Origin: Thermoflexales bacterium
Lineage (GTDB): Bacteria; Chloroflexota; Anaerolineae; J036; Brachytrichaceae
Length of the DNA: 52,106 nt
Assembly (NCBI GenBank): GCA_019694215.1
Contig: JAIBCK010000010.1
Location: 1-52,106 of the forward strand
Direction: 5' to 3'
The notes under the pieces are model-generated. The model ran no database searches and had not been told where the DNA came from. It saw only the letters and a list, made by a program, of their open reading frames with translations. The position numbers were made by a program, and so were the translations under genes. Positions 16,825 through 39,000 of this stretch are shown in pieces (the first letter of the stretch is position 1; every line of letters begins with the position of its first letter).

Positions 16825-16919
16825 AGCGACGGCGGACGGAGGACCGCTGTCCGCGGACGGAAGACAGAGGACCGAGGACGGAAGAAGGCGCTTTGTGGCG
16901 GCAGACCGCGGACTGCGGC

Positions 16920-17085
16920 GATGCAGAGACGCCCAACGGCCGACGAATGACGCAGGACGCGCGCCAGCAAGCGCCCTCCTTCCCCGCCCCTTCGTGAACC
17001 TTCGTTTCTTCGTTCTTCTGTTGAAATGGACGGCCGACGGCAGACCGCGGACCACCGCCATGCAGACGCACCTAACGCATGACGT
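16920..17085 (+). repeat. Long direct repeat, copy 1
   Basis: About 165 bp repeated almost exactly 215 bp further on. It begins GATGCAGAGACGCCCAACGG, contains a pyrimidine-rich core with repeated TTCGTT steps, and ends near CACCTAACGCATGACG. It is embedded in low-complexity GGACNGA-like sequence. No open frame is conserved and no transposase is present. Confidence 0.9.
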
Positions 17086-17134
17086 CGATCGACCGCGGAC
17101 GGCGGACCGCCGACAGCAAACCGAGGACCGCGGT

Positions 17135-17299
17135 GATGCAGAGACGCCCAACGGCCGACGAATGACGCAGGACGCGCGCCAGCAAGCGCCCTCCTTCCCC
17201 GCCCCTTCGTGAACCTTCGTTTCTTCGTTCTTCTGTTGAAATGGACCGCCGACGGCAGACCGCGCACCGCCGCCATGCAGACGCACCTAACGCATGACG
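17135..17299 (+). repeat. Long direct repeat, copy 2
   Basis: Second copy of the same unit, differing by only a few substitutions. A shorter element starting GGCAGACCGCG occurs three times (near 16900, 17039 and 17254), so the repeat is nested. The gene-free stretch from hypA to the adaptor gene (16813-17341) otherwise holds only this material. Confidence 0.9.
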
Positions 17300-17341: not shown

Positions 17342-18514
17342 TCAGCGCGCAACAATATCCGCCTGCCCGGTCATGCCGGGGTAAATCACCTTGTCCGTCG
17401 GGGCGAGCGAGATCTGCGCGGTGTAGAGCGCCGAGGAGCTCTGCACGCCCGACGACTGCGCCAGCACCGAGCGCACCGTGCCCGTCAGCGGCTCGCTGTA
17501 GGCCTTGAGGCGGATCGTCACCGGCGCACCCACCTGAATCTGCGCGACGTTGCGCTCGACCAGGTTGGTCGTCACGAACTGCAGCGCCGAAACATCGATC
17601 AGGCTGAAGGCCACGCCGGAGGGCGTCGAGCCCACGCCGACATTGACCGCCTGCACGATGCAATCACACGGTGCCAGCAGTGTCGCCTTGGCGAGGTTCT
17701 CCGTGGCGGTCTCGAGCGCGGCCTTGGCCTGGCTGCGCTGGGTCTCGGCCTGCTTCTTGGCCAGATCGGTCGGGCCGGCGGTGAGGTCTTCGAGCTTGGA
17801 CTTGCTGGTCTGCACCGCGGCGTTGGCCGAAGCCACCGATGACGCGGTCACCGGTTGCAGCGTCTTCTCGTAGTTCGAGCGGGCGAGCATCAGGCTCTCA
17901 TACGCGCTGCCAAACGAGGCTTCGGCCTGCCGGCATTGCATCGTCTCGGTGCCCGTCGAGCACGCCCGGTCACGGCTGATCTGCGACGACAGATAGCTCA
18001 GCCAGGCCGATTCCGCGCTCTGGCGGGCGTTCTCGATCTCGGTCGAAGTCGCCCCGGCGACGGTCGTGCTGTAGGTGGCATAGGCGGCGTTCAGCGCGGC
18101 CTGGGCGGCGGCGATGGCCTCCTTGGTCGCAGGCACGCTCGACGCCAGGATATTGGCCTCGGTCAGGTCGAGCGCCAGTTGCGCGTCGGCGACCGCATCC
18201 TTGAGCGCGGTCGGGTCCAACGTTGCAAGCACATCGCCTTTCTTCACCTTCTGGCCGGGCCGGACATTGACGGCGGTGACCTTGGCGTTGGTCTCGAAGC
18301 GGACGCTGATTTCGTTGGCGATGGTGGTGAGCTCGCCGTTCACGCTCACCGTCGCCACGGCGGGGGTGGCTGTCACGGCGACGCGCGGGCCGCCGCCAAA
18401 GCCGGCTGCGGCCGGCGTGGCCGTCGCCGCAGGGGTCGAGTTGGAGCACGCCGCCAGCATGCAGGCCAGACCCGCGATGCGCAGGGCGGCCGGGATCGTT
18501 ATCTTGCGAATCAT
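17342..18514 (-). CDS. Lipoprotein membrane-fusion adaptor (MacA/HlyD-type), copy 1
   Basis: A 390-residue extracytoplasmic adaptor of an ABC exporter. The signal peptide ends in the lipobox LAAC (Cys23), followed by a Thr/Ala/Pro linker. The first lipoyl half is near 65-100 (VNVRPGQKVKKGDVLATLDP), a long Ala/Gln-rich coiled-coil hairpin spans about 100-275, and the second lipoyl half starts at about 280. Where most adaptors read APFDGVV, this one has APCDCIVQAV with Cys283 and Cys285; a second Cys pair sits in the hairpin (ACSTGTETMQC). Both pairs are shared with the neighbouring paralogue. Last gene of an operon with a paralogue, permease and ATPase, 13 bp behind the paralogue. Confidence 0.9.
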   Translation of the reverse strand: MIRKITIPAALRIAGLACMLAACSNSTPAATATPAAAGFGGGPRVAVTATPAVATVSVNGELTTIANEISVRFETNAKVTAVNVRPGQKVKKGDVLATLDPTALKDAVADAQLALDLTEANILASSVPATKEAIAAAQAALNAAYATYSTTVAGATSTEIENARQSAESAWLSYLSSQISRDRACSTGTETMQCRQAEASFGSAYESLMLARSNYEKTLQPVTASSVASANAAVQTSKSKLEDLTAGPTDLAKKQAETQRSQAKAALETATENLAKATLLAPCDCIVQAVNVGVGSTPSGVAFSLIDVSALQFVTTNLVERNVAQIQVGAPVTIRLKAYSEPLTGTVRSVLAQSSGVQSSSALYTAQISLAPTDKVIYPGMTGQADIVAR

Positions 18515-18527
18515 GGTGTTTTCTCGC

Positions 18528-19976
18528 TTAGCGGATCGTGATGTCGACGGACCCCGTCATCCCCGGCAGAAGGTTGGCGGTGGACGGATCGAGATCGATC
18601 AGAACCGTGAACAGGGCAGTGCTGCTTTGCATCCCCGAGGAGGCAGGCAGGACAGCCGCGACTTTGCCGGTGAAGAGGTCGTTGAAAGCCTTGAGGCGAA
18701 GCGTGGCGCTCTGCCCCGGCTTGATGGCAATGACATCCCGCTCGGTGATGTTGGTGGCGCGGAAGATCAGCCGGGCCGTGTCGAGCAGGGTGACGTTGCC
18801 TTCGCTGGTCGACCCGGCCGTCAGCGTGACTGCCTGCACAACGCAATCACACGGCGAGAGCAGCTTGGCCCGGGCCAGGTTGCGCGTCGCGCGGTCCACC
18901 GCGACCTGCAGCTGCTTGAGCTGCAGCTCATACACATGGCGCTTCTCTGCGCTCACCCCGTTCTTCAAGTTGGCGAGGTTGTTCTGCGCGGAGGCGACCG
19001 CCGACCAGGACTTGACCAGCTGGTCGTTGCTGGCCGGCTTCTGGGCATCGAGATAGCTTTGATGCGCGGTGGCCTCGCGCATCTCGGCCTGCTGCACCGA
19101 GAGCTGCGCGCTCTTGCAGCTGGCCTCGTTGCTGCCCGGGATGCCCGGCACAAGACCACAGGCCTGGTCGCGGTTGAGCTGGCTTGAATACAGGCTGTTC
19201 CTGGCCTGGTTCCAGCTGCGCAGCGCGCTCTCCAACGCATATTTGTCAGCACCTTGCAGAAGCTGGGTGTAGCTGGCATACGCGCTGCCCAACTGGGCGG
19301 CGGCGTTGTCGATATCGCTCTGCGAAGCCGGCTCGAGCGCCGTGGCGATCTCGGTCTCCTTGAGCGCGAGCGATTCCTTGGCCTTGCGCAGCACTTCGTT
19401 GAGGTCGGACAGGTCCAGCTCGGCCAGGACATCACCCTTCTTCACGGTCTGCCCGGCCACGACATTGACCTTGCTGATCTGGCCGCTCGTCTCGAACTGG
19501 GCCAGCACCTGCGGCGTGCGCAGCGCCAGGACGCCCGTCCCGGCGACCGTCGCGGCGGTCTCCGTGCGGGTGACGACGCCGCCGACCACGGCGCCCGCAG
19601 CCGCCCCGGTCCCGGTGAAGACACGCGTGCCCGAGAACGGCACGGTGCCGCTGATTGGGCGTCCCCCGGTGAAGGGGACGGTCCCGCTGATCGGCCGCGT
19701 GCCACTGAAGGGTGCCGTTCCACTGAAGGGCACAGTCCCGCTGATGGGGCCCCGCGGGCCACCCGGTCCGCCACCCTGGCCCTGGCCACCGCCCTGGCCC
19801 TGGCCGCGACCCTGGCCAAATCCACCCTGTGGAGGGGCGCCCTGTGCGGCCGGATCGCCTGCCGCAGCCGCGGGCTGCGCGGTGGGCACGGCGGTCGCCG
19901 GGGCCTGCCCCTGGCACGCGACGAGCAGGGCGCTTGCCGCCACGAGGGCGATTCTCTTCACTGTTGTCAATGCCAT
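18528..19976 (-). CDS. Lipoprotein membrane-fusion adaptor (MacA/HlyD-type), copy 2
   Basis: Paralogue of the preceding adaptor, 482 residues from the ATG at 19976 (MALTTVKR...), with lipobox LVAC at Cys21. An alternative ATG at 20003 adds nine residues and lies 4 bases after the permease stop. After the lipobox comes a Pro/Gln/Gly-rich stretch and then a tandem peptide repeat of the type PISGTVPFSGT, seven units long (19606-19760). Lipoyl halves flank a coiled-coil hairpin as in copy 1, and the same Cys pairs occur (SPCDCVVQAV; ACGLVPGIPGSNEASC). It probably forms a mixed hexamer with copy 1 on the FtsX-type permease. Confidence 0.88.
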   Translation of the reverse strand: MALTTVKRIALVAASALLVACQGQAPATAVPTAQPAAAAGDPAAQGAPPQGGFGQGRGQGQGGGQGQGGGPGGPRGPISGTVPFSGTAPFSGTRPISGTVPFTGGRPISGTVPFSGTRVFTGTGAAAGAVVGGVVTRTETAATVAGTGVLALRTPQVLAQFETSGQISKVNVVAGQTVKKGDVLAELDLSDLNEVLRKAKESLALKETEIATALEPASQSDIDNAAAQLGSAYASYTQLLQGADKYALESALRSWNQARNSLYSSQLNRDQACGLVPGIPGSNEASCKSAQLSVQQAEMREATAHQSYLDAQKPASNDQLVKSWSAVASAQNNLANLKNGVSAEKRHVYELQLKQLQVAVDRATRNLARAKLLSPCDCVVQAVTLTAGSTSEGNVTLLDTARLIFRATNITERDVIAIKPGQSATLRLKAFNDLFTGKVAAVLPASSGMQSSTALFTVLIDLDPSTANLLPGMTGSVDITIR

Positions 19977-20007
19977 GATGTGTTTCTCAGAGACGTTGTA
20001 CATCTCT

Positions 20008-23000
20008 CTATCGCTCGCGCAGGATGGTGATGGCCTTGCGGCGGATCACCGGCTGGGTGGCCATCGCCCCGCCGACGACGGCGGCGACGATGATCAATGC
20101 GATGATGATGCCGGCCGTGCTGAAGTCAAAGGCCAGCAGAATGGGCTGATCGTTTTGCAGGCGCTGGCTGGCGACGAAGGCGTAGCCCAGCAGTGTTCCG
20201 GCGATGATGCCGGCCATGCCGGCGGCCAGCGTGGTGATGACGGCCTCCCCGATGAAGACGCCGCGCAGGATGCCGCGCGAGGAGCCAATCGCCTTGAGCA
20301 TGCCGATCTCCACACGCCGCCCCATCACGGCGGTGTACATCACCGCCAGCACGCCAAAGATGGCTGTGATCATGGAGAGCAGCGTGAGCAGGACGATGAA
20401 GACGCGGCTCTGTTCGAGGTTGGCCCGCGCGGTCGCAATCTGGTCCGAGGTCGCCGTCAGGCTCAGGCCGTTGACCTGCGTGATGGTATTGCGCAGCTGA
20501 CGCAGCAGCTGGGTCTGGTTCACCCCGGGCTGCGTGGTCGCCAGGATCTTGGTCATCAGGTTGGTCGTCGGATCGGGCGCGCCAAGCGTCGGGTCATTCT
20601 TGAGCTCGCGATACGTCTCGAGGTTGATCAGCACGCCGCTGTCATTGGCATCGCTCGTGCTGCGCGAGAAATAACGGCTGAAGCCCGGCACCCGCGCGGC
20701 GACCGCGGCGATGGTGAGGTTGACGACGTGATCGGCCCCGGTGCCCTTGACCTGCAGGACATCGCCGGTCTTGAGGTCGAGCGAGCTGGCCAGCCCGGTC
20801 CCGATCACCGCGATGTTGCGCTCGGTGGCGAGGCGGTCGAAGACGCTGGCATCCCCTTCCGAGAAGGTCAGCAGATCGGTATACAGGACCTTGTTGAGGT
20901 CATCCGAGACGCCCACCATGTTGACGCGCGCACTGCGCAGGCCGATGCGATCGCTCACCTGCACGCCGTTGTAGGCATCCGCCACGCCCACCACGTTGGC
21001 AACGCCCGTGTTGGCCTTGACTGCGGCGAAGTCGGCATTGGTCAGCGTAGTGTCCGCGCGGTCGACCTGCCGGAAGACGACAAACTGGCCCGGGCCACCC
21101 CCGCCGCCGAAGTTGCGGACCTGGGCGACGATCGGTGCGCCGTTGTTGAAGCGCGCATCGGTCTCGACGTTGGCGTGCTGCAGGGCGAGCTGCGTGGCCA
21201 GCAGACACGGCAGCACCCCGCTCATCACGACCATGAGCGAGATCAGCGCATTGCGTCCCTTGCCGCGCAGCGAGTAGCGCCCGGCGAAATACGCCGCGCT
21301 CGGGCTGATCACGTTGTAGATGGCGATCAGCACGCGCTCGAGCGGGATGGTGAGGAAGTAGAAAAGCAGCGCGATGCCAACCACCATCAGCAGCAGCGAA
21401 CCGGAGTTCAGGATGGTCTGACCGGTGACGTTGCCGCGGGTGAAGACTGTCGGCAAGGCAATCAGGATCACGCCGCTGAAGGCCAGCAGCACCAGGCCGG
21501 CGATGAGCAGGCCCGTGTCGCTGCGGCGCTCGCGCAGGTGCGAGAGGTCCTCGAGCGTGGGCTGGTCGGCCGCCGATGGGTTGAGCACGACCATGACCTT
21601 GGTCTCGGCCGCGGCGCGGGCCGGGCTGATCGTCGCCAGCGCCAGCACGACGGCGGTGATCGCCGTCGGGGTGAGCACCGTGGCCAGCGTCCAATCCGCG
21701 CGCACGCCGGTCGGCAGGTTGAGGTTGGCCATCATCACCGGGACGATGAGCTGATCGTTGATGAGCTTGCCCAGTAACAAGCCCAGCGCCACGCCGATCA
21801 CCCCGAGCAGGATGACCTCGATGATCACCACTTCATACAGGCGGTAGCGCGGCGAGCCCAGCACGCGCAACACGGCCAGGTCATGCTTCTGTTCGTTGAC
21901 CGTCGTGGTCATCAGCGCATTGACCATCAAACCGACGATGCTCATACTCAGGATGCCGTAGAGCGTGATGTAGGTCTGGGTAAAGGTGAAGGCCGCCGAG
22001 GTGTTCTCCAGCTGCGTGTATTTCGGCAGGCTGACCGTGAATTCCTTGCCCAGCTTGCTCTGCAGGTCGTCGCGCACCTTCTCGCCGATGGCGCGCGCCT
22101 CGGTCACCGTGGCCTTGGCGTTGGTCGAGCCAGTGCTCCCGGACTGCCACACCAGCAGCATCTGGTTGGCCTGGCCGGGCTGCTCCACCCAGGCCTGGGC
22201 GTCCTCGAGCCGCATGACGATGGCATTTGACACGCCGCTCGGCAGCCCGCTCAGCGGGCCCACGCCCGTGATGACAAAGCGGGCCGTCAGACGCGGGGCG
22301 CTCACGCCGCTCGCCGCGGTCTCGCCCGACAGGCGTTGGCTGGGGATGGCGTATGAAAGCTCGACCACGTCACCGGTCGACAGACCCAGCGTATCGGCCG
22401 TGGTGCTGTCCAGGAAAATCGTGCCCGCGCTGGGCGGGAAGACGCCGCTCGAGCCCGTTGTGCTGGCGGGATTGCGATTGGCGGCGTTTCCACCAAACGC
22501 AGCATTGCCACCTCCGGGTCCGCCACCCGGCCCACCCCCGGGCGGCCCACCGCCGCCAGGCCCCCCGCCGGGGATCCCGCCGCCGCCGCCACCTCCGCCA
22601 CCGCCAACACCCCCGACGCGAATCCCGGCCACGCTCACCCCGCCGGTGCGGGAGTTGCTGGCCGAGGCGCCGGTCACCGAGACCAGCGCGTCGTTGTTGG
22701 TGTCGATGGCGATCAGCGTCACCGACTCGCCCGTGGCAGCGCCGGGGCGGCGCGCCTCGATCGAGCTCAGGATGCGCGGCAGCACCTGGGCGATCTCGGG
22801 GTAAGCCTGGCGGGCCAGCCCCGTGACGCTGTTGGTGTTGAAGAACGTCGACGCCGCCAGGTCGCTTTTGGCGATGCTGAGGTCGTAGTTGCCCGTGGTA
22901 TTGCCAACGGTTTGAATGCTGAACTGTCGCTGCGTGTCGACCAGGGCGAGCAGCGCGCCCACCAGCGCCACGCCGACGACCAGCGCAAGCGCGATGATCC

Positions 23001-23052
23001 CGGTGCGCAGCTTGCGCCGTCGCCAGGCATTGAGTACGTAAGTCAGACCCAT
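20008..23052 (-). CDS. Large FtsX/MacB-type ABC permease
   Basis: A 1014-residue permease with two FtsX modules. One membrane helix at residues 18-38 is followed by a large extracytoplasmic domain, then three helices (about 360-480), helices near 515-600, a second extracytoplasmic domain, and a final set of helices (about 880-1000). The first outer domain contains a Gly/Pro run (about 145-190, nucleotides 22,485-22,615), an unusual insertion that may be disordered. MacB-type permeases do not translocate substrate through the membrane but transmit ATP-driven movement to the adaptor. It follows the ATPase gene directly, with GAGGAGG as ribosome site inside the junction. Confidence 0.9.
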   Translation of the reverse strand: MGLTYVLNAWRRRKLRTGIIALALVVGVALVGALLALVDTQRQFSIQTVGNTTGNYDLSIAKSDLAASTFFNTNSVTGLARQAYPEIAQVLPRILSSIEARRPGAATGESVTLIAIDTNNDALVSVTGASASNSRTGGVSVAGIRVGGVGGGGGGGGGGIPGGGPGGGGPPGGGPGGGPGGGNAAFGGNAANRNPASTTGSSGVFPPSAGTIFLDSTTADTLGLSTGDVVELSYAIPSQRLSGETAASGVSAPRLTARFVITGVGPLSGLPSGVSNAIVMRLEDAQAWVEQPGQANQMLLVWQSGSTGSTNAKATVTEARAIGEKVRDDLQSKLGKEFTVSLPKYTQLENTSAAFTFTQTYITLYGILSMSIVGLMVNALMTTTVNEQKHDLAVLRVLGSPRYRLYEVVIIEVILLGVIGVALGLLLGKLINDQLIVPVMMANLNLPTGVRADWTLATVLTPTAITAVVLALATISPARAAAETKVMVVLNPSAADQPTLEDLSHLRERRSDTGLLIAGLVLLAFSGVILIALPTVFTRGNVTGQTILNSGSLLLMVVGIALLFYFLTIPLERVLIAIYNVISPSAAYFAGRYSLRGKGRNALISLMVVMSGVLPCLLATQLALQHANVETDARFNNGAPIVAQVRNFGGGGGPGQFVVFRQVDRADTTLTNADFAAVKANTGVANVVGVADAYNGVQVSDRIGLRSARVNMVGVSDDLNKVLYTDLLTFSEGDASVFDRLATERNIAVIGTGLASSLDLKTGDVLQVKGTGADHVVNLTIAAVAARVPGFSRYFSRSTSDANDSGVLINLETYRELKNDPTLGAPDPTTNLMTKILATTQPGVNQTQLLRQLRNTITQVNGLSLTATSDQIATARANLEQSRVFIVLLTLLSMITAIFGVLAVMYTAVMGRRVEIGMLKAIGSSRGILRGVFIGEAVITTLAAGMAGIIAGTLLGYAFVASQRLQNDQPILLAFDFSTAGIIIALIIVAAVVGGAMATQPVIRRKAITILRER

Positions 23053-23061
23053 GGCGCCTCC

Positions 23062-23811
23062 TCAGGCGGCCGGAGCGGGTTCCGGTTGATGAATTTCGTC
23101 GACGAGCAGGCCATCGCGCATGTTGATCACCCGGTGGGCGAACTTTGACATGCGCGGGTCATGCGTGACGAAGACGATCGTGGTGCCGCGTTCCTTGTTG
23201 AGCTGGACGAGCAGACGCATGATTTCGTAGGACGTCTCGGTGTCCAGGTCGCCGGTCATTTCGTCACCGACCAGGATGGGCGGGTCATTGGCCAGGGCGC
23301 GGGCAATGGCCACGCGCTGCTGCTGGCCGCCGGAGAGCTCGCTCGGATAGTGGTTCATCCGATCGGCCAGCCCCACCATGCGCAGCAGGGACTGGGCGCG
23401 CTTCATGTCGCGCGAGCGGGCCAGCGCCATCGGCACCTGCACGTTTTCGACCGCCGTAAACGAGCTGAGCAGGTTGAAGTTCTGGAAGATGAAGCCCATC
23501 TTCTTCAGGCGCAGGGCGGCCAGCTTCTCCTCGTTCAGGGCGACAATGTTCTCGCCGTCGACGATGACGTGGCCGCGGCTGGCCGTGTCCAGCCCGCCCA
23601 GGATGTTGAGCAGCGTGGTCTTGCCACTCCCGCTGGGTCCCATCAAACACAGAATCTCGCCGCGCTTGACATACAGGTTGACGCCGCGCAATGCCGCGAC
23701 GGCCTCCTTGCCCATCACGAAGCTCTTGCGCACGTCTTCGATCTGGATGATGTAGGGGTTGGCGGCGTCCTTCTGGACGCCCGGGGATGCCGGAGCGGCT
23801 TTGTCGTTCAT
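23062..23811 (-). CDS. MacB/LolD-type ABC transporter ATPase
   Basis: ATPase of 249 residues in the FtsE/LolD/MacB group. Walker A is GPSGSGKT (about 58-65), the Q-loop FIFQNFNLL, the signature LSGGQQQR, Walker [13 protein letters not shown] and the H-loop VTHD. The usual DEPTGNLD is changed to DEMTGDLD, but the catalytic Glu is kept. First gene of the export operon; ATG at 23811 with GAGG 8 bases upstream. Confidence 0.93.
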
Positions 23812-23912
23812 GTCGGGGACCTCACTAGACCCTGGAAAAGGCTACGCGGTTCGTGCAAAGAAAGTGTTTAGGTGGCGTGGGCTTGTGCTATAGAAGGTGT
23901 GAAAACCTCTAC

Positions 23913-23918
23913 AGGATA
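23913..23918 (-). promoter_or_regulatory. Candidate -10 of the export operon
   Basis: TATCCT on the minus strand, separated by exactly 10 bases from the last of three phased heptamers. This is the spacing seen when an OmpR/PhoB-type activator replaces a -35 hexamer. No good -35 is present. The match to TATAAT is 4 of 6. Confidence 0.35.
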
Positions 23919-23928
23919 GGGCATCCAC

Positions 23929-23957
23929 CTGAACAGAAACTGAACATGGCCTGACTA
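23929..23957. promoter_or_regulatory. Three 11-bp-phased heptamers, likely response-regulator site
   Basis: CTGAACA at 23929, CTGAACA at 23940 and CTGACTA at 23951 lie exactly 11 bp apart, one helical turn. Tandem direct repeats with this period are the normal binding pattern of OmpR-family dimers. They lie between the export operon and the response-regulator gene, so they could control both. Confidence 0.6.
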
Positions 23958-23995
23958 GGCTATATCCTACCGGCAACTGGCGAAACGAGACAAGC

Positions 23996-24679
23996 ATGGC
24001 AAAGACAATTCTGGCCGTCGACGACAAGGAAAACGTCCGCACCCTCCTGCGCGAATACCTGACCGAGGAAGGCTATCGCGTCGTGACGGCCGACAACGGT
24101 CAGAACGCGCTCTACGTCGCGCGCCAGGAGAAGCCCGACCTCGTCCTGCTCGACCTGATGATGCCCGAGATGGACGGCATCTCGTTCATCCGTGCCTTCC
24201 GCAAGGAGAGCGACGCCCCCATCATCGTCCTCACCGCCAAGCTCGAGGAGTCTGACAAGGTGCTCGGCCTGGAGCTGGGCGCCGACGACTACATCACCAA
24301 GCCGTACAGCATGCGCGAGGTGCTTGCCCGCACGCGCGCGGTGCTCCGTCGCGTCGCGCCACAGGCACGCACCAGCCCGGTGCTGCGCGTGGGCGATGTC
24401 AGCCTCGACCGCGACACGCGCGAGGTGCTGGTGGGCGAGAAGGAGGTGCGCCTGACGCCTTCCGAGTTCGACCTGCTGGCCGTGCTCATGTCGGCGCCGG
24501 GCAAGGTGTTCAGCCGCGCCGATTTGCTCGAGACGATTCAGGGCAGCTACTTCGAGGGCATCGCGCGCACCATCGACGTGCACGTCCGAAACCTCCGATC
24601 CAAGATCGAGCCCGATCCCGCCAACCCGCGCTATGTCGAGACCGTGTTCGGGGTTGGATATCGATTCGCCAACCGCTGA
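23996..24679 (+). CDS. OmpR-family response regulator
   Basis: A 227-residue two-domain regulator. The receiver has the acidic pair Asp9-Asp10, phosphoacceptor Asp53 (LLDLMMP), Thr80 and Lys102 (TKPYS). The C-terminal winged helix carries LTPSEFDLLAVL and ends in TVFGVGYRFANR, typical of PhoB/OmpR. The histidine kinase follows 5 bp later. Divergent from an ABC export operon, with phased repeats between, so control of that exporter is likely. Confidence 0.94.
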   Translation: MAKTILAVDDKENVRTLLREYLTEEGYRVVTADNGQNALYVARQEKPDLVLLDLMMPEMDGISFIRAFRKESDAPIIVLTAKLEESDKVLGLELGADDYITKPYSMREVLARTRAVLRRVAPQARTSPVLRVGDVSLDRDTREVLVGEKEVRLTPSEFDLLAVLMSAPGKVFSRADLLETIQGSYFEGIARTIDVHVRNLRSKIEPDPANPRYVETVFGVGYRFANR

Positions 24680-24684
24680 AGGCC

Positions 24685-26076
24685 ATGCCGCGCACCATCT
24701 CCGCCCGCCTCATCCTGGCCTTTCTGGCGGTGAGCATCCTCGGGGTGGCGCTGGCCGCGGCCATCACCTACTGGCTGACCGAACGCGAGTTCATCCAGCT
24801 CTTCTACGATCAAAGCCGCACGCGCTACGTCAACGAGGCCGAGCAGTATTACGCCGTGGTCGGGAGCTGGCAGGGCATCGAGGCCGGGCTGCGCCCCTTC
24901 CCCAACGCGCGCGAGGGCATTCCCCAGCGCGATGAGCGCGAGCCGCAGGGCGGCGGCCCGGTCCGCGGTGGGGGTCGCGGCGGGCAGAGCGCCTTTGCGC
25001 TGGCGGATCAGGCCGGCCGCATCATTCTGGGCGCGCCACCGGTCGTCACCGGCACCCAGCTCACGGCCGCGCAACTCGCCGCCGGGAGCGCGGTCGAATA
25101 CAACGGCGAGCGCGTCGGCACGGTGATCGCCGCGTCACCGCCCCAGCTCGGCCCGCTGGAGAACAGCTTCCTCGACCGCACCAACCGGGCCTTTCTCTAT
25201 GCCGCGCTGGGCTCGGCCGCGCTTGCCTTGCTACTGGGCGTTGTGCTGGCGCGCACCCTCACCCAGCCGCTGCGCGCGCTCACGGTGGCCATCCGCCGCA
25301 TGGCGGCCGGCGACCTCAAGCAGACGGTGCGGGTGCGCACCAACGACGAGCTGGGAGAGTTGGCGGCCGCCTTCAACCACATGAGCGCCGATCTGGACGC
25401 GCTCACGCAATCGCGCCGGCAGATGACCGCCGACATCGCCCACGACCTGCGCACGCCGCTGACGGTGATCGGTGGCTATGTCGAATCGATGCGCGACGGC
25501 GTGCTGAAGCCCACGCCCGAGCGCCTGACCACGGTCGGGCGCGAGGTGCAGCTGCTGCAGCGGCTGGTGACGGACCTGGGCACGCTCGCCCAGGCCGAGG
25601 GCGGGCAGATGCGGTTGAACCGCGCCCCGCTCGCCGCCGACGCACTCCTGTCGATGCTGGCAAAGAGCTATCAACCGTTGGGCGATGCGCGCAACGTGCG
25701 CGTCCTCGTCGATGCGCCCGCAGACCTGCCGCATTTCAGCGCTGACCCGGACCGGCTGGCCCAGGTGTTTGGCAACCTGGTGACCAACGCGCTGCGCCAC
25801 ACCCCGCCCGGCGGCAGCGTCACGCTCAGCGCGCGGCGCGCCGCAAACGGCGTCGCGCTCATGGTGACCGACACGGGCGAGGGGATCAGCCCGCAGGACC
25901 TGCCGCACGTCTTCGACCGCTTCTACCGCGGTGACAAGGCCCGCAGCGCCGACGGCGCCGAGTCCGGGCTGGGGCTGGCCATCGCCAAATCCATCGTCGA
26001 GGCGCACGGCGGCACGATCAAGGCGGAGAGCGCGCCGGGCCAGGGCACGACGATGCGCATCGACCTGACGGCGTAG
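24685..26076 (+). CDS. Sensor histidine kinase (BaeS-like)
   Basis: A 463-residue membrane kinase. Helix 1 spans about 8-30; an outer sensor domain of about 135 residues includes a Gly/Arg-rich segment (QGGGPVRGGGRGG, about 88-100); helix 2 spans 169-189; HAMP follows (about 190-240). The phosphorylated His253 is in ADIAHDLRTPL. The ATPase domain shows N (NLVTNALRHTP), G1 (DTGEGIS), F (FDRFYRG) and G2 (SGLGLAI) boxes. It pairs with the adjacent regulator. It converges with the TauE gene, leaving 6 bp between stops. Confidence 0.94.
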   Translation: MPRTISARLILAFLAVSILGVALAAAITYWLTEREFIQLFYDQSRTRYVNEAEQYYAVVGSWQGIEAGLRPFPNAREGIPQRDEREPQGGGPVRGGGRGGQSAFALADQAGRIILGAPPVVTGTQLTAAQLAAGSAVEYNGERVGTVIAASPPQLGPLENSFLDRTNRAFLYAALGSAALALLLGVVLARTLTQPLRALTVAIRRMAAGDLKQTVRVRTNDELGELAAAFNHMSADLDALTQSRRQMTADIAHDLRTPLTVIGGYVESMRDGVLKPTPERLTTVGREVQLLQRLVTDLGTLAQAEGGQMRLNRAPLAADALLSMLAKSYQPLGDARNVRVLVDAPADLPHFSADPDRLAQVFGNLVTNALRHTPPGGSVTLSARRAANGVALMVTDTGEGISPQDLPHVFDRFYRGDKARSADGAESGLGLAIAKSIVEAHGGTIKAESAPGQGTTMRIDLTA

Positions 26077-27078: not shown

Positions 27079-30000
27079 ATGTACTCAATCCGATTGATCC
27101 TCAACATCCTTCTCGCCATTGCCCTGCTGCTGCCTGCCCGCCCCGTGCCTGTGAGCGCAACCCGGCCAGCGGCACCCGCGACCCAGGTCATCGGTGACCT
27201 TCCGCGCGCCCTGCTTGCGCCTGCCGCGGAAGCCCCTGCCTCGGTCGACCACGCGATAGCACTCAGCAAGGTCCAGTCGGCCTACCGCGGGGCCGATGCC
27301 GTAGCGGGCAGGATCACCGTCACCTACACGTTGAGCAACCTGCGCCCGCCGGCCAATGCGCCCGCGCTGGCAGACGGGTTGACGGTCACCGACACGATGG
27401 CGGCCCTGTCTGGGCTCGATCCGTTGGCTGATGCGAACACACTGCGAAGTGCCCTCTTCACCACGGTTCTCACCCCGGGTATCAGCGTGGTGAGTGCCTC
27501 GCGGCCCTACAGCGTCAATGGTTCGGCCCTCCAGGTGGCCTGGGGCGATGTCGCCCCACTCTCCAACGTCACACTCACCCTGACGCTCGCGACGCCGACG
27601 GCGTCACCCGATTTCATGTCCCTGGACGGCGGCGCACGCGCCTACGCCGTGCTGCAGGGCCGGATGGTCCTGGCCTCCGCGGGATCGATCCGCTTTGCGC
27701 CCGATGCGCTGGGCGCCTACCTGAACTGGACGCCGGATGCCGACACGCGCGATGCCTGGATGCTGCGTCAACTTTCCCAGTTGGGCGATGACCCGTCCGG
27801 GCTGTTTGCCTTTGTCCGCGCCCTGCGCACCGAAAGCTATCCGGGCTCGTTGCGCGGCACCCGGGGGACGCTGTGGAGCCAGGCCGGCAACAGCCTCGAC
27901 AAGGCCTCCCTGCTGATCGCTTTGTTGCGCGCCTCCGGCATCCCTGCCCGCTACCGGCACGGCAGCCTCTCGCCTTCCATGGCCGAAACACTGCTCGGCG
28001 CACTCTTTCCCGCGCTGCCCGATACTACGGGTCTGGTCCCGGCGGATGCGGACGTGTTCGATCCCCTGCATGACGATGTCCTGCTCGCAGAGACCGGTGA
28101 TCACTGGTGGCTGGACGCCTATCTGCCAGGACAGGGCTGGACGGCGATGGATCCGGCCTTCGCCTCGGCGACGGCCGGCGCGACCTTTCATGCCAGCCTG
28201 GCGGGTGATGGCAGTGACCTCGTGGCCGAAGTCCCAGATACACAACGTCACAAAGTCACCTTCCGTCTGACCGTCGAGCGGTTCGGCCCGTTTTCATTCA
28301 CCAGCCTGGGCATGGGCACGATCCAGCCGCTCAGCGCCACGATTCCAACGGTGCAGCTGGTGGGCAACCCGGTCTCGCTGGAACACTGGGTGGACACTGT
28401 CAACCAGGGCGGTCTGGTCTTCGCCACCACCATCAACACCTACCTCCCCTATCTCGTAATTGGCGATGAGGCCATCGACGGGCAGGCCTTTCAGGACATC
28501 ACCAGCAACTTCCCCATGGGATATGAGGTCAGCACGGCCGAGTGGCTCTCGGTCGACCTCCAGCATCCCTCGGGGGCGCGCGAGACGTTCACCCGCACCA
28601 TCGTCGACCTGATCGGCGTCGCGGCCCGCAGCAGCGGCGGAACCATCACCAACAGCTTTGGCAGTGGCACAACGCTGGTGGACGAGGGCAACGTCTATGC
28701 CTTTCTGTTCGCACCCTCGGTAGTTCCGATCGATGCCGTCAACGCCGCCTATCCCAACCTCGCCGCGGCGGCCTCAAAGGCGCAATCCCTGATCGCGACG
28801 GCCGATACCGTCACGGGCACGAGCCCATCGGAGATCGCCCAGCTTCAGCGCGCGAGCGTGGCCATGCGTTCGGCCCTGCGCGCCGAAACGGGCGCGCAGG
28901 CGCTGTGGTTTGCGGCGGCCTCCGACTTTGGGACGCCGGGCCTGGCGGCGGCGGCGCACGTGGCCGCGTACTACGAAATGCCCCGTCTCATCATCGCCTC
29001 GATTCAGAAGGACAAAGGCGATGCGCACTCGCGCGCGGTGCTCGATCTGGCCCTCAATCGCATCCGCTCCGTGCCGTATCCCGGTCAGACGGTGGAAGGT
29101 GCCATCCCCTTCAACCTCACCTGGGGACTGATGCAGGGCGAGCTCGAACACGCCCTGATGTCCGCCTGGCATGGAGTGGCGCCCACCGGCGTCCCGGCCG
29201 TCTTCGCACAGGCCCGCACCGAGGAAGTCCCCCTCGTGCTGCTCGCCCACAGCAACGTCGCGATGCTGGATGCGCTCGAGCTGTCTGCTCAGGCACGCAC
29301 ACGCATCGCGCAGACGCTGGCCGGCCGGCCCGATCTCATGGTCGTCGTTCCCAGCCGCATGATCACGGTGGCGGGCACCTCCACGGTCGGCTGGTACACC
29401 ATCAACATGCTGGACGGCGAAACGCAGGACATGATGGAGGATGGTCTTCACACTGCGGCGATCGAATACGGTTTCCTGTTGAAGTCCAACTTACAGAACT
29501 TTGGCTTTGCGATTGCCGGCTTCGGACATGGCTTCTTCGCCGAAACGATGTTCTTTCTGGGCTACTTTCTGCAGGAGTGCCCGATTCGCTCGGGGAATAT
29601 CAAGAACATCTACGCGCAGGCCCTGACCCGCGCGACGCAATCCGCCCTGGATCTGGCCAAACGCATCGGTCAGGCGGACAAGGCATCGGGCGGGAAGGCC
29701 AATGACTGGATCGACTGCTATCTGAACGGCTGCACCTACGCGATCGGCTTCAAGTGGTCGACCAAGTTCAAGATTCCGAAGTACCTCTCGACCGGTGCGG
29801 ATCTTGCAACCGATGGCAAATTGAAGGAAAAGGCGGGGCCCTGCTCCTTCAATCTGACGAGCCTGAGCGGAGACTGCAAATACGAATGGCATGGCCCCCT
29901 CAGTTTCAAGAGCGGTATTTCGGCTGCTGCGGCGATCATTGGCAGCCACAACGATCCGCCCGTGCCCGGTGGATTGGCCGGCCAGGCGCGCTTTACCCCA

Positions 30001-33000
30001 CAGCCAGACACGTCTGTTTCGCGGGCCATGACCCTGGCAGCCACACGGGCTGGCAGCACCCTGACGATGACGGCCCAGGTTGGGTATGCGTCCGTCGCGC
30101 GCGGCGCGGCCGCCTATGCGTCAGCCACAGCCGGTCTGGCAGTATCAGGCGTGCCGCCGACGTTCACCGCCTTTGCGCCAGGCGGGAGTGCGGCGCTCGC
30201 CGGTGCTGGGTTGATGCTCGGCCCCGCCGACGCCCCGCTGTATGTCAACGGTTCCGCCGTGGCGATTCCCGAGGGCGTGGGACTACCCGCCTACACGGGC
30301 ACACTGACGATCAGCGAGACGAGCGCGATCCTTGATCGCATATCGCTTTCGGGCGTTGGCCATTTCCTCGTCGTACGCGCGACCCCGGCCACGGCAAGCA
30401 TCCTGCCAGGCGCAACGACGGCCTTCACCCTCGCCCACGAGACCAACGTCACCGCCCTCTACACCGTCACGGCCGAGGCACCCGCGGGCTGGGCGCTCGG
30501 GCTGACAGCCGCAGGTGCGGTGACCGCAACCGCGCCCTTGGCCGCACCACCCGGCGAATACCGGATTCTGGTGACGGCGGGCGATGCCCGGTCGCGCGTC
30601 TTTGCCAGCACCTGGCACACCGTATCGGTCGGCCCACGCAACGGGGTTGATGTGGTCGTTCAGGTCGATCCCCTCCACACCGTGGCCTGGGGGAGCGTGC
30701 CGAACACCGAGCTGACAGGCGACACAAACAACGGGCAAATGCAGCTCACGGATGCTGCATTCACCATCGTCATCTCCAACACGTCGTCCGTCACGCGCAG
30801 CTACGGGCTGAGCGTGGCAGGCCTCCCGGCCAGCTGGAGCTATTTGAGCACGGCCAGCGTGACGCTGACCGCAGGTGCGGTCGGCAGGGTTGGGCTGGCC
30901 GTGTCCCCCACGCTCGGCACGCTCGCCGGAAGCAGCCATCCTTTTTCAGTGACCGCCAGCGCAACGGACGGCGCCCTCGCAGCGACCGGTGCGGCGGTGT
31001 TCGTGATGCCTGGCCGCGCCTATGCCCATCTGGACGCGCCAGCGCATGACCGTTATGCGGTGGCGGGAAGCACCCTCGCGATGACCGCCGCAGTCCGCAA
31101 CGTGGGGAACCTTGCGGGGACCTTCCCCTTCACGGTCGAGGCACCCGCCACCTGGGCGCTTGCCGCGCCATCCAGCTTCACCCTCGCGGCCGGGCAGACC
31201 GACATCATCACGTTCAGCGTGGTGCCAACGGGACCGCTCTACAGCGCCAGTGCGGTGTGGATGAGAACGCGATCGGAACCGTATGACCAGTCCGACTACA
31301 CTTTTGTCCAGCTCGTCACGCCCTACGCGGGAGCGATCTTTGCGACAGCCGCATCGTGCGCCGGAGCGGGGAACACCCAACTCGCCAGCGCCTGCGAGAA
31401 CCTTGCCAATGCCGTCCTGCGCCTGGAGGCCAGGCCCGATGACGTCGCGTATCGTGATGCCGTGGTCGTCGCGCTCGGCACCGTCATCGATCTTCTTGCG
31501 GCAATCGGGCAAACACCGGCGCTCGACGCACTCGACGCCCTGGCCAGCAGCCTGAGCGGGCATCTGGGCACCGGGCTGGACGCCGATCTGGCGGCCATTG
31601 CACCAGCCCTCCTGACCGCCTGCACCGAAGCGGACGCCGTGACCAGCCACGCCTTTGAGGCCACCTTCACGCCGGGTGCCGCGCTGGCGCTGCCCGGTCG
31701 TGAGCTATCGTTCCTGTTCAATTTGCACAACGCCGGAACAACATCTACTTCCTATACCGTGGTGCTGACGTCGCCGGTCATTGCCGGGCCGGTGCTCCTG
31801 GCTCCCACGCTCGCCGCGGGGGCGAACGCCAGTCAGGCCGTCACGGTGTCTCTCGGGACACCCGGGTTTGTGCCGATCCATGCGCACATCAGCGCCAACA
31901 CGGGCCTGACCAGCATGCCGACGCTCGACGATTCGGCGATTGCGGGCGCGACCTTTGTATCCCCCATCCTGCAGATGCTCGATGTCGTCGCCACCCCCGC
32001 CTTTGTCGACAGCGGCGTCAGTGCGACCGGGCTGACGGCGCGCGTGGTCAACGTCGCCAACAGCCCATTGCAGGCCATGGCGACCCTGACGGTAAGTGCA
32101 CCGGGCGGAGGGGTAAGCGCCACCCTGCACGCATCCGCCGCAATCATTCCCGGCAACGTGACGCTGATCAATTTTGGAAGTTTGACCACCAGTGGCTTCC
32201 TGACCGGGGTCTACACGCTCACGGGCAGCGTGGTGGTATCCGCGCCGACGGGGCTCGCCGGGGCGACATCGACGGCCACGGGCGGGTTCGCCGTCGGCCA
32301 GGCCCTGTTTGCTGCAGCGGCGGCCTCTCCCGTGTTGGTGGCGCCTGGTGATATCACCGTCACCACGCTGGTCACCACCTGGGTGCATCAGGAAGCCCCG
32401 CTGCCCCTGCTGAAGGCATCCCCCGCAGCAAGACCGGCGGCGTCAAGCACCCTGCTTCCGCCCCTGACCAAGCCACTTCCTTCGCCGACAGGTGAAAGCA
32501 TCGCCGCGCCGGAGACAGCGCTTCCGGCCATGCCTTCCGCATGGGCCGAGGAGGACGGCGCGACCCGCGCAGAAGCCTGGGTGGAGGCCGACCTGGGCGG
32601 TCTGCCCAGCGCACCCACCTTCTCGGGTGGGCTGACCCGCACCGATGGGGGCAATTCAACCGTTACGCGCACCGGGACCTGGACGACGGTGTCGGGATCG
32701 AACATGGCCCACAACGGCAACTACAGCCGAACCAGCGTGGTGTCCAGCACGCTCACCTTCACCTTTACCGGTGTCTGGCTGAGCATCGGCTACCTTGCCG
32801 CAACCGATGGCCGCACCTTCGATGTGGAGATCGATGGCGTTTCGCAGGGCGTCATTGACAGCTACGTCAACCGCGCGGACACTCCCATGAGCGCGGTCTA
32901 TGCCGGCTTGAGCGCGGGCGAGCACGTCGTCCGCATCACGACACTGAGCGGCAAGAACGCCTTCGCAGCCACCACGGCCTATGTCAAGATCGACTACTTT

Positions 33001-36000
33001 GATGTTTGGGACGGCAGCACACTCGCGGATGGCACCTTCGAACACACCGACGGCCGGGTGATCCTGGGCCCGGGATGGACGACGCAGACGCTTGCCACCG
33101 CAAGCGGCGGGAGCTACGCGCGCAGTCCGTTCTCCTTCGGCGTGGCCTGGCTGGCCTTCACCGGAGACAGTGTCAGCTACCGGATGATCAAGGACTTCAG
33201 CAACGCTGGGGCCGTATCCGTTTTCGTCGACGGCGTCCTGAAGGCGGACCTGGACCTGTATTCCACGCTGCTCACCGGGAGCAGCGTGACGACGCCCGTT
33301 GTGAGCTTCAACGGTCTCGGCGCTGGCGCGCACATCCTGACCCTCGTCCTCCGGCGCGGCACGTATCTCGCGCTCGACCACTTCACCACGCCGGGCAGCG
33401 CACCCTTCTTCAGCGTCTCGACGCCCAACGGTGTGTATCGTGTCGAGGAGGGGGATTCCAGCCTGCGCTACAACGGCTTCCCGCTCACCCGGACCCGCAG
33501 CACCTGGAGCGAAAGCGCGAGCAGCTCGGCCAGCGGGGGCTTTGTGATCGCCTCATCCACGGCTGGCGATTCCATTGAAATGACTTTCTCGGGACCCTGG
33601 GCGAGCCTGGGCTATGTGGCCACCACCAATTCGGGGCGGGTCGAGGTCTTTATCGATGGCGTCTCGCGGGGCACGGTGGATGCATATGCGCGCTACGAGA
33701 TGCCACGCAGCGTTGTGTTTGCCGATCTCGGCGCCGGCGCGCACACGCTGAGCGTGACGGTGTTGAGTGGGCGCAATGCGTTTGCCACGACACCGGGCAA
33801 TTTCTACTTCGACTACCTCGATGTTTGGGACGGCAGCGCGCTGCCCGATGGCACTTTCGAAGAGGACAGCGCAAGGATGCTGTACAGCCGCAGTTGGACA
33901 CTTGTCAACCAGGCCAACGCTGGCGGCGGCAGCTACGCGGTGTCGCCCTTCCAGAGTGGGGCCGCCTGGTCGGTGTTCGCCGGAGACACGGTCAGCCTGC
34001 AGTTCTTTGCCGCCTTCGCCAACGCCGGAAGCGTCGATGTTGCGATCGATGGCGTGACCCGCAGCACAGTGGATCTGCGCGTGGCCCTGACCGGGACCAC
34101 CAACCTCACGCGCGTGCTTTCACTGAACGGGCTGGGGAGTGGACCCCATGTTGTCACCCTGGGCATGGCGCGGGCGTCGTATCTTTCCCTGGATCGCATC
34201 AGCACGCCGGGCGACGCCCCCTTTGCCACACCGCCAGCGATGACCGGCGTGTATCGATACGAGGAAAATGATCCGGCGCTGCTCTACGATGGCGCCCCGT
34301 ACACCATGACCCGTCAGACCTGGTTCGAGACCACTGCGTCGGAGGCCAGTAGCGGATACGTGCGCTACAGCGCAACCGCCAGCGACACGATCAGCCTGGT
34401 CTTTACCGGCACCTGGGTGTCGCTGGGTTATCTCGGCCGCGCCAATGCCGGCCGCTTCGAGGTCTATGTCGATGGCACGCTGCGACAAGTGGTGGATGGC
34501 TATGCCCATGATGATGAGCCGCGCAGCGCCGTGTTCGGCGGCCTGACCCCGGGCACGCATTCACTGTCCGTCACCGTGACCGGCGCGCGGAATGCCCTCG
34601 CCACGACACCGGGCAACTTCTATCTGGACTACATCGACGTCTGGGATGGGAGCGCCCTTCCGGACGGCAGCGTGGAGGAAAACAGTGGCCGCTTCTGGTA
34701 CAGCGCCGGTTGGACGCGCCCGGCGCTGTCCGCTGCCAGCAACGGCGACTATGCCCTCTCGCCCTTCGGCGGGGGTGCCGCCTGGATGGCCTTTGCCGGC
34801 GATAGCGTCAGCGTACAGCTCATCGGCGGCATCAACGGTATCGGCATCCTCGAGCTTGACGTGGACGGCGTGATGCGCACAACCGTCGATCTCAGGGTTC
34901 CACTGACCGGCACGACCGGCTTCACACGACCCATCTCCCTGAACGGGTTGGGCAGCGGCGCGCATGTGCTCACCGTGTTCGCCAGGCGCGGCGCCTACGT
35001 GAACATCGATGCGGCTGTGACCCCGGGGGTGGCCCCCTTCATCACCCCGTTCGTGCCGCTGGGGTTCACGCGCTACGAGGAGGCCAACCCGGCCATTCTG
35101 TACAACGGTCTTCCCTATTCCATCACCCGACAGACGTGGACGGACGGCAACTTGACGATGGCCAGCGACGGCTACGTGCGCCTGAGCGCCACCGTCAGCG
35201 ACACCCTCAGCCTTACATTTACGGGCACCTGGGCGGCCCTGGGTTACATCGGTCGGTCGAACGCCGGTCGCTTCGAGGTCTTTCTGGATGGCGTTTCGCG
35301 CGGGATCGTCGATGGCTACGCGCATGCCGAGGAGCCGCGCAGCCTGACCTTCGCCGGCCTTGTGACGGGCACACACACGCTCTCCGCCACGGTGCTGGGG
35401 ACGCGCAACCCGCTGGCCGCCTCACCCGGAAACTTCTATCCCGACTACATCGATGTCTGGGACGGCTCGGCGCTGCCGATGGCCACCCTCGACGAATCCA
35501 ACCCCCTGATTGTGTACTCCAATGGTTGGACGCGCCCGGCATCCGCACTCGCTGAAGGAGAGGCCTATGCGCTCAGCACCGTCTCGGGGGGAGCGGTCTG
35601 GGCGCGCTTCATCGGCGACAGCCTGCGCGTCCAGGCTCTGGTCGGGACCGCCAGCGCAGGCGAACTGGGCGTCTGGATCGATGGCGCTTTCCGCGAATGG
35701 GTGGACCTGGACGCCACGGCCCCGGCCACACGCAGCATGGCCTATGGCGATCTCGGCCCGGGCGCGCATGTGCTGACGCTCGCAACGCACCGCTCGTCCT
35801 ATATCAACTGGGATGTTGCGACTGTGACCACGCCTGCCCCGTACCGCCCGCTGACGCGCACGGGCGTCTATCGCCTGGAGGAGGATGATCCTTCCCTGCG
35901 CTACAACGGCGCACCCTTTACGGCCACGGCGAGCAGCTGGAGCGAGTTGCTGCGCACCGTTGCAAGTGACCGGTATGTCGCGCGTTCGAGCACCGTCAGT

Positions 36001-39000
36001 GATACGGTCAGCCTGACCTTCGCCGGGCCCTGGGTGGCGGTCAACTTCGTCACACGCGTGGATGGGCGCCACGCCGAAGTCTTCCTGGATGGGGCCAGCC
36101 AGGGCATCGTCGACACATACACCGCCAGCGATGACGTGTTGTCGCGCGTGTATGGCGGGTTGACGCCAACCACGCACACCCTTTCCATCACGGTGCTCTC
36201 CACGGCCAATGTCAGCGTCACGGCGGCCACCAAATATGTCTACCTGGATGCCATCGATGTCTGGGATGGCACAGCCGAAGCGAAGGGCTTGTTCCAGCAT
36301 CTGCCTTCCGAGCAGGACGGCGGACGCATGTATCTGAGCGACGACTGGACGCGCAGCGCCCGCGTCTCCGCGTCGAACGGCGACTTCATCGAGGATGGCA
36401 GCAATGCCTGGTTCCTCTTCACCGGCGTCAGCGTGACCGTGATCGGGATGAGCGACAACCTCACCCCGAGCCTGGCCGAGATCTTTGTCGATGGCGTGAG
36501 CGCCGGGGTGCTGGACCTGTCCTATGCTTTCGGGCGTGCGCCCATGCCCTTCACGCTGAACGGGCTGGGTGACGGGGCGCATGTGCTGCGCTTTGCCGAT
36601 CGCAGCGGGGCTGGCTCTCAGCTGGGAGCCGGGCTGGACGGCTTCCTGACCGCCGCCGACGTTGCACCGCTCCCCCGCGTGGCTTGGACGGCATCCGTGC
36701 CGGGCGACCTGCGCCTGGCAACTACGCCCCTGGTCGGCGATCTGGACGGGGACGGGCAGCCGGAAGTGATCGCAACGGGCTCGCGCGAAAGCTGCATTTT
36801 TTCGTTGTGCACGTTCACGCCGGGCGCTCTGTTCGTCTTCCGCGGAGACAGTGGCGCGCTCGTCTATTCACGCACCCTGACAGGCACCGCAGCCAGCTGC
36901 TCGGGCGGCACGCTCTGCGGCGGGACCGGCGCCCCGGCCATCGTCAATCTGGATGGCGGTCCACAATCCGAGATCATTGTCGACAACGCCGGAGGGCTCA
37001 ACGCCTTTGCCGCAGATGGCACCTTGCTGTGGATCAACCCCGCAGTCCGTGGGACCTGGGCGAGTGCCCCTGCCATTGGCAACCTGGATGATGACGAGGA
37101 TCCCGAGATCGTCACCGTTCACGATGTGGCCACGTCCAACCAGCGACGCATCCATGTCGTCCAGCCGGATGGAAGCGTCAGTTGGACGTATACCTTGCCC
37201 AACACTTCGCCTGGCCCACGCATGCCGGTACTGGCCGACTTCAACGGCGATGGCCGACTGGACATCTTCGTGGCTTCCGGACAGACGGCCTACCTCTTCC
37301 ACAACAATGGCGTCTCGATGACGCTCGCCTATACACGGGCTTCAGGGCTCGACCACTACGGCGCTCCGGCAGTTACAGATCTCGACGGCAATGGCCTGCC
37401 CGAGATTGCTATCGGCTGGACGGGTGTCCTGGCCGCCTACCGCAATGACCTCACGCCCATGTGGATCTACACCACCGGCGGGATCTATCCCAGCACCGTC
37501 TCCGTTGCCGACCTCGACGGCAATGATGGCGGCGCGCCCGAGCTGGTGCTCTACTCCAAGACCAGCAACGGCACCGAGGAGGGGCGCGTCTTCGCCATCA
37601 ATGCCGATGGCACCCTGCTCTGGTCGCAGGCCGCCAAGGACACCACCAATTCGAGCGCCGGCGTTGCGGTGCTGGATCTGAACGGCGATGGCGTGTACGA
37701 GGTGGTGTGGAACGGCTATGTCTCCGGCACCCTGATCTTCGATGGGCCAAGCGGCGCAATCACCTTCGCCGATGAAGTCATCAACAGTGGCACGGTCAAC
37801 GAGACACCGGTCATTGCCGACATCGATATGGATGGCCACGCCGAAGTCGTGCTCGTGGACAACACGCAAGTTGTCGCGCTCGCCAACGATGCCGGCTGGG
37901 CGGGCTCGCGCGCCATCTGGAATCAGCACAGCTATCACGTCACCAACATCAACGACGACCTCACCGTTCCGCCGTTTGAGCCCAACAGCTGGGCATATCA
38001 CAACACCTATCGCACCCAGTCGCCGCTCGAGGCACCGGCCCCGGTCTACTATGTGCAGATCACCCACACCCTGGCCACCAGTGCCTCGCTGGTTGCCGGA
38101 TCCTTCACCCGCCCGTACTCGGACTTCAGCCCGCTGCTGTACTGGGGCTACAAGCACTACTGGTTCGAGCCGTTCCGGGTGACGCGCTTCGATGTTGCGG
38201 TGGCGGGCTTGCGGCCCGGTGAAGTGCGGGCCATCAGCCTGGGAACGGTGGTGAGCTACACCGTCAACGCGGGCCGCAATCGCCTGGAGTTGCCGCCGAT
38301 CTACGTGACCGCCGGGCACCTCATCGCCGTCTCGCCAACGGAAGCGAGCGTGCTGGCCGGCGGCACCACCCGCTATGACGTGGTGCTGACCAACGCGGAT
38401 GCGAATCCGCGGGTGTTTACCCTGACCATCGCAGGGCTGCCCAGCACGTTCAGCCACACCGCGCCGCCAACCCTGACCCTTGCCGCGGATGCGTCCATTA
38501 CCGTGGCCGTCGATGTCTCTGCGCCGGCCGGAGCCGTCCCTGCCGAGCTTGCCCTGGCGTTCGTGGCCCGCACGGAGCTGGGGGCCGAGGAAGCCGCCGC
38601 AGCCACCCTGACCGTGCACGACGGCAACGTGATGGCGCTGCTGCCCGAGCTGCAGAACACGGTCGTGGGGACCTCCGTGCCGTTCACGGTCATCGTCACC
38701 AACACCACCGCGAACCCGATCACCTATGCGCTCAGCCTGTCCGGTCTCGGCACCAACCTGGTGACGCATCCGCCGACCGTGTCGGTCAGCGCGGGACAGA
38801 GCGTCAGCGTCCCGGTCACCGTGACGGCAGTCGAGAACAGCACCAGCCTCTTCGTCAGGGCCTGGTTGACCGATGCCCTGCACAACGCAGCGTTGTCGGA
38901 TGTGTCTATTCTTAACATTCTGGGCGCGCGCGCGGTGACGGGCGCCTTCGCTCCGGCCTCGGTGCGCAGCGGTCAGAGCACCCTGACCCGGACCCTGCTC

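Follow-up and report, generated by a model that had tools for sequence, protein, structure and literature searches.

The window, by which we mean the whole stretch of 52,106 nt analysed here, contains two diverging gene sets separated by an intergenic region at 23812–23995. On the plus strand, a 227-aa OmpR/PhoB-type response regulator (23996–24679; hereafter RR) is followed by a 463-aa sensor histidine kinase (24685–26076) with HAMP, HisKA and HATPase_c domains. The minus strand carries genes for a 249-aa ABC exporter ATPase (23062–23811), LolD/MacB-like with matches below the cut-offs, a 1014-aa FtsX/MacB-type permease (20008–23052) and two HlyD-type membrane-fusion proteins (18528–20003 and 17342–18514). 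The RR scored above cut-off for both Pfam Response_reg (PF00072, 107.6 bits) and Trans_reg_C (PF00486, 92 bits), which places it in the OmpR/PhoB family. It scored below the equivalog cut-offs for PhoB (TIGR02154, 230.9 against 296.2 bits) and MtrA (NF040689, 231.1 against 300 bits), and the kinase, whose best NCBIfam model was BaeS_SmeS, scored below the equivalog cut-off for BaeS (NF012163, 269.7 against 500 bits); none of these names was therefore applied. Elsewhere in the window, 16901–17299 holds two direct copies of a 184-nt sequence, 96 % identical and 215 bp apart from start to start, beside reading frames that presumably resemble hydrogenase-maturation genes. At 27079–39915, one reading frame of 4278 aa contains repeated modules and reads like a large surface protein.

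Relatives of the kinase were found in at least 80 records. Of those listed, 77 were titled Chloroflexota, mostly Anaerolineae or Chloroflexi (for some genus names in these records the phylum is the one we take them to belong to), and the remainder were two titled ‘uncultured bacterium’ and one ‘Bacteroidetes’. The nearest relative among the kinase records listed was a Thermoflexales MAG (L032; L-numbers denote the loci compared), with an RR 81 % identical to that of the window and the same exporter diverging from it. All 60 genomes searched, including the window's own, contained an RR match at E≤1e-40, and the own genome held nine such RR-like matches, the RR of the window among them. Draft genomes of metagenome-derived organisms make up most of the records compared.

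A sequence-only reading of the intergenic region had pointed to three heptamers, CTGAACA, CTGAACA and CTGACTA, starting at 23929, 23940 and 23951, and their exact 11-bp phasing was confirmed. The first two (23929–23935 and 23940–23946, plus strand) are direct half-sites 11 bp apart on one strand, as in a tandem operator; the third (23951–23957) is a doubtful half-site that overlaps the first bases of a candidate −10 element, TAGGCT (23956–23961), nine nt past the second half-site. This hexamer had not been remarked on previously, and neither had a plus-strand TATCCT at 23963–23968, also towards the regulator gene, which lies 17 bp after CTGAAC at 23940–23945 and represents an alternative −10. 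The pattern CTGAACA-N4-CTGAACA-N4-CTGA, allowing up to three mismatches, matched once in the window, and any match was obtained in only 1 of 100 dinucleotide shuffles. At the same tolerance no further copy of the array was found in the 3.4 Mb of its own genome, where the backward control also gave 0 matches.

The regions upstream of related RRs were compared across 100 non-redundant loci outside the genus of the window. RR identity to that of the window was 47–73 % in this set, whose members were treated as relatives and not as locus-by-locus orthologues. Duplicates, defined by identity of the 50 nt immediately preceding the RR start (L002, L032, L035, L042, L043 and L080), were removed together with two loci with a truncated RR (L055 and L103) and one with no RR (L063), and the window genus (L001–L003 and L032) was kept out of training. 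A matrix of 33 columns (7+4+7+9+6) was fitted by expectation-maximisation to the 100 upstream regions of 250 nt. The seed consisted of heptamers like those noted previously and a −10 element after N9; shuffled regions were seeded identically and run for 40 rounds against 60. The log-likelihood ratio of the fit was 502, whereas 20 dinucleotide shuffles averaged 118 and did not exceed 144. The resulting consensus was CTTAACAAtTTCTnAACAtcTTTcTGnTATnCT, with CTnAACA as the family form of the half-site.

The same layout was apparent from a matrix-free count. Among 132 occurrences of CTGAACA with up to two mismatches, a further copy stood exactly 11 bp upstream in 22 cases and exactly 11 bp downstream in 12, compared with 0–5 copies at any other spacing between 7 and 20 bp. 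The hexamer TAnnnT followed the half-site pair at offset 9 in 45 of 62 pairs and at every other offset in at most seven. Across 103 loci totalling 704 kb, and counting the training sites, 65 sites exceeded 20 bits, against a mean of 0.08 for 12 permuted matrices. A box was present on the RR strand no more than 3.3 kb upstream of the RR, as far as each locus reaches, in 54 of the 100 loci outside the genus, and none was found in this range in the other 46; the corresponding count with 20 column-permuted matrices had a mean of 0.25 and a maximum of 2. In 32 of the 54 loci the box lay within 250 nt, and in 22 it lay only farther away, beyond the training regions. An ORF start was found downstream of 81 of 82 boxes, which is weak as evidence since random positions gave 736 of 1000.

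The recurrence of the 11-bp pair upstream of the RR relatives supports the earlier view of the phasing as a predicted tandem OmpR/PhoB-family operator. The same cannot be said of the suggestion that the three-heptamer array, together with a minus-strand TATCCT, forms the operator and promoter of the exporter. This hexamer does occur at 23919–23914, with nine bases separating it from the array, and the array lies between both gene sets. However, the repeats face the opposite way: the family −10 element stands on the repeat strand, at the offset given above, and an opposite-strand hexamer of the type A...TA at a gap of nine was seen in only 1 of 82 boxes. In addition, the 11-bp array of these heptamers occurs next to related RRs that have no neighbouring exporter ATPase match, and a separate box with a higher score points at the exporter. 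An exporter promoter built on the array was therefore considered very unlikely.

This exporter-directed box, which the sequence-only reading did not include, was identified by scoring both strands of the window with the matrix trained outside the genus. The best two sites were 23871–23839 on the minus strand (10.5 bits) and 23929–23961 on the plus strand (7.9 bits), followed by a third at −0.9 bits, and both of the best sites fall in the one RR/exporter intergenic region. The minus-strand site reads CTAAACA-CTTT-CTTTGCA-N9-TAGCCT, with half-sites at 23871–23865 and 23860–23854 and, after nine nt, the hexamer TAGCCT at 23844–23839. At 2.4 bits, its second half-site is about as weak as the doubted third heptamer of the array. 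Near-identical 11-mers in opposite orientation, CCACCTAAACA and CCACCTGAACA, contain the first half-site of each box, and apart from this pair no inverted repeats of at least 8 nt were found in the intergenic region of the window.

In a 333 kb sample of the own genome, consisting of the window and 20 sampled stretches, the exporter box and the array ranked first and second, with the next site at 2.3 bits; with the window's own base composition they scored 13.6 and 11.2 bits, and the next in the 333 kb scored 7.6. Both are weak members of the family, the array at 7.9 bits comparing with 22.8–43.1 bits for the 31 best RR-upstream sites elsewhere. Column-permuted matrices reached 7.9 bits in 11 of 300 scans of the window and 10.5 bits in 6 of 300, so that each score alone is modest and gains weight from the strand, spacing and location of the site. 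A chance origin of the repeat would fit the modest score of the array and the frequency with which permuted matrices attain it. Against this stand its rank of second in the 333 kb sampled and the expected gene directly downstream, on the expected strand and at the expected spacing, and we regard chance as the most improbable of the explanations.

Because the same layout is found upstream of related RRs and the matrix trained outside the genus places the two sites at ranks 1 and 2, the array is read as an autoregulatory PhoB-type operator/promoter. It would most likely be the pho-box-like operator and promoter of the RR–kinase genes, comprising heptamers 1 and 2 and a −10 element TAGGCT starting at 23956. 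The position of the third heptamer relative to the family argues against a functional role, and it was not retained as a half-site. It scored 2.3 bits with the half-site matrix against 9.9 for the first two. Extra half-sites in 70 related boxes are found at −11 in 14, at −22 in 27 and at +22 in only one; moreover, nine nt beyond half-sites 1 and 2 comes TAGGCT, and nine nt beyond half-site 3 comes CTACCG, which is no −10 element. As the family extras lie upstream and CTACCG follows half-site 3, we doubt the third heptamer. It may echo a CTG that commonly stands ahead of the −10 element, found at offset 23 in 13 of 70 related boxes and at the offset of the window, 22, in 2 of 70.

The candidate −10 element is itself poor, TAGGCT being a weak hexamer at the 9-nt position where TAnnnT predominates elsewhere. 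On the RR side of L032 it is instead half-sites 2 and 3 that have the right spacing, with CTGAACA, CCACACA and, at nine nt, CATAAT (8.8 bits), so that the register there seems shifted by one half-site and the register in the window is less than certain. Global alignment of the intergenic regions of the two genus members did not bring their RR-side boxes into register. We also considered a repressive array, in which the RR on half-sites 1 and 2, and perhaps 3, would cover the −35 and −10 elements of a plus-strand promoter formed by CTGAAC (23940) and TATCCT (23963). The 17-bp spacer of this promoter is that of sigma-70 promoters, and half-site 3 would overlap the −10 element. The constant N9 spacing of the related loci speaks for activation instead, TAnnnT occurred at offset 16 in 0 of 62 half-site pairs, and no sigma-70 consensus promoter was found in 23780–24010, a weak argument as only 0.1 was expected. 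Repression was consequently judged unlikely, and activation through the TAGGCT register is preferred.

For the exporter, control by the same RR through the box at 23871–23839 is the most likely arrangement. The earlier proposal that the kinase/regulator pair governs the exporter would thus hold by way of this separate minus-strand box, and not by way of the array, which points at the RR–kinase genes. A search for the ATPase in 31 genomes gave seven further matches at 67 % identity or more, and these were read; their ATPases are 77–81 % identical except for that of L155 (65–67 %). Boxes precede three of these seven relatives (L149, 21.6 bits; L153, 17.8 bits; L152, 14.8 bits), one is weak (L150, 5.7 bits) and none was found before the other three (L151, L154 and L155). 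The sites at L149, L150, L152 and L153 all lie outside the training set. No RR or kinase match was present in the 6–7 kb read at L150, L152 and L153, so that control there would be in trans, and the ATPase match of L152 contains one in-frame TAG. In L092 and L104, with RR identities of 58 and 60–61 %, an HlyD gene diverges from the RR with a box on each strand between them.

The counterpart of the exporter box in L032 is CTAAACA-ACTT-CTTTGCG-N9-TACAGT, which scored 5.5 bits. Between the RR-side and exporter-side boxes of that locus lies a perfect inverted repeat (L032:3175–3222) with 24-nt arms and no spacer, giving z = −8.75 as single-stranded DNA.

Taken together, the region 23812–23995 probably comprises a pair of diverging promoters, both of which would carry a PhoB-type operator, so that the RR would activate its own genes from one and the exporter from the other. 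In the proposed mechanism, the kinase would phosphorylate the RR, and the phosphorylated RR would bind CTGAACA-N4-CTGAACA (23929–23946, plus strand) head-to-tail. The bound RR would replace the −35 element and recruit RNA polymerase to the −10 element nine bases downstream, switching on its own putative RR–kinase operon in positive autoregulation. The minus-strand operator CTAAACA-N4-CTTTGCA-N9-TAGCCT (23871–23839) would likewise switch on the ABC/FtsX/HlyD exporter genes, presumably also as an operon.

This arrangement resembles the pho box, which PMC4415409 describes as two 7-nt conserved units, each with 4 less conserved nt, forming 11-nt direct repeats that are bound head-to-tail. Pho boxes overlap the −35 site according to PMC3348028, and strict spacing to the core promoter elements is proposed for PhoB-activated promoters in PMC10294691. 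The likeness to the Escherichia coli PhoB promoters lies in the tandem 11-nt direct repeats of the window and family boxes, whereas the half-site letters, which according to PMC4415409 are CTGTCAT in E. coli and vary between species, are CTGAACA, CTAAACA or CTTCACA here. The Streptomyces PhoP PHO boxes (GTTCACC repeats), whose number and organisation vary according to PMC4415409, also share the 11-nt direct-repeat units and differ from the boxes of the window in half-site letters and phylum. The distance to the −10 element in the boxes analysed here is 9 nt. It is about 10 nt in examples of E. coli PhoB promoters. Some likeness also exists to BaeSR-type envelope-stress systems, in that the best NCBIfam match of the kinase is a BaeS model and export genes are near. 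The kinase falls far below that cut-off (269.7 against 500 bits), however, and the pump, an ABC/FtsX exporter with HlyD proteins, differs from the RND pumps for which BaeSR is known. Among the matches listed from the open-licence literature, no described operator for such a two-component regulator in Chloroflexota was found. With operator, promoter spacing and target genes predicted, the regulator is open to direct testing in vitro, and the box offers a way to predict the targets of this two-component system in many such draft genomes.

Further sites in the own genome were sought with patterns and a covariance model. The half-site-pair pattern gave one match, the array itself, against two control matches, and the 33-bp pattern with up to two mismatches gave six, both boxes included, against six. 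A covariance model of 70 outside boxes gave nothing in the own genome at E≤10, an empty answer that shows little. At E≤0.1 it gave matches in 5 of 29 genomes, with one of the six matches being a box used in building it, and no match in either of the two genus members. With pattern matches no more numerous than controls and the covariance model empty, a genome-wide regulon in the own genome was not upheld. One of the four other 33-bp pattern matches, C92:142–174 on the minus strand (L118), scored 9.6 bits, so that at least one site outside the sampled 333 kb beats the array; the best sites in the other three loci scored −2.7, −6.9 and −6.0 bits. C92:142–174 may be a further target or a chance match. 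An ATG follows 7 nt after its end, and because the frame opened there is cut off by the contig end in about 130 nt, the gene that the site faces cannot be named; the site faces away from a frame that we take to be acyl-CoA-dehydrogenase-like.

The identity of the binding regulator was considered in relation to the recognition helix. Of 34 boxes adjoining their own RR, all seven with a K helix had a TCA-type second half-site and all 27 with an R helix had another type, and the window (helix R, CTGAACA) fits its class. This agreement was rejected as independent proof, as it reflects a single change on the RR tree. Binding by another OmpR-family paralogue in place of the adjoining RR might be envisaged, given the nine RR-like matches in the genome (this RR included) and the possibility that paralogues have like boxes. 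The recurrence of the box beside relatives of this RR across many genera, and the match of half-site letters to the helix class of the adjacent RR in 34 of 34 cases, albeit through that single change, make a paralogue quite unlikely, and we infer that the adjoining RR is the binder.

Boxes elsewhere precede genes for YceI, DUF4405/cytochrome b561-like, PMT_2/YkcB, Lcl_C, YHYH, VTC, Yip1, dioxygenase, HlyD and DUF5666 proteins, and also DUF2680-like secreted proteins that fell below the cut-off. Of 21 box-following proteins in other loci, 18 were scanned and two lacked any match; no phosphate gene was found among those scanned apart from the VTC-domain protein, VTC being tied to polyphosphate. 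Since many of these proteins have the look of secreted or membrane proteins, an envelope role for the box-linked genes is suggested. A broader reading, whose prospects we consider evenly balanced, is that of an undescribed envelope regulon of the Chloroflexota, mainly Anaerolineae, under one kinase–regulator pair. It would have a shared operator code with half-sites at −22, −11, 0 and +11 in exact helical register and 9 nt to the −10 element, with the helix residue R or K (VHx[R/K]NLR) and the half-site (CTGAACA-like or CTTCACA) switching together. Its targets would be lineage-specific, namely the ABC exporter here and YceI, DUF4405 cytochromes, PMT glycosyltransferases and DUF2680-like secreted proteins elsewhere.

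Pairs of diverging boxes were also observed at L045:7976–8136, L048:7758–7923, L090:3777–4259 and L106:6364–6503. In L048 the diverging boxes lie between genes with YceI and Yip1 domains (Pfam). L090 and L106 have look-alikes of these two proteins flanking the boxes on either side; in L045 the YceI-side look-alike is present, and the locus stops short of the point at which the gene opposite could be read.
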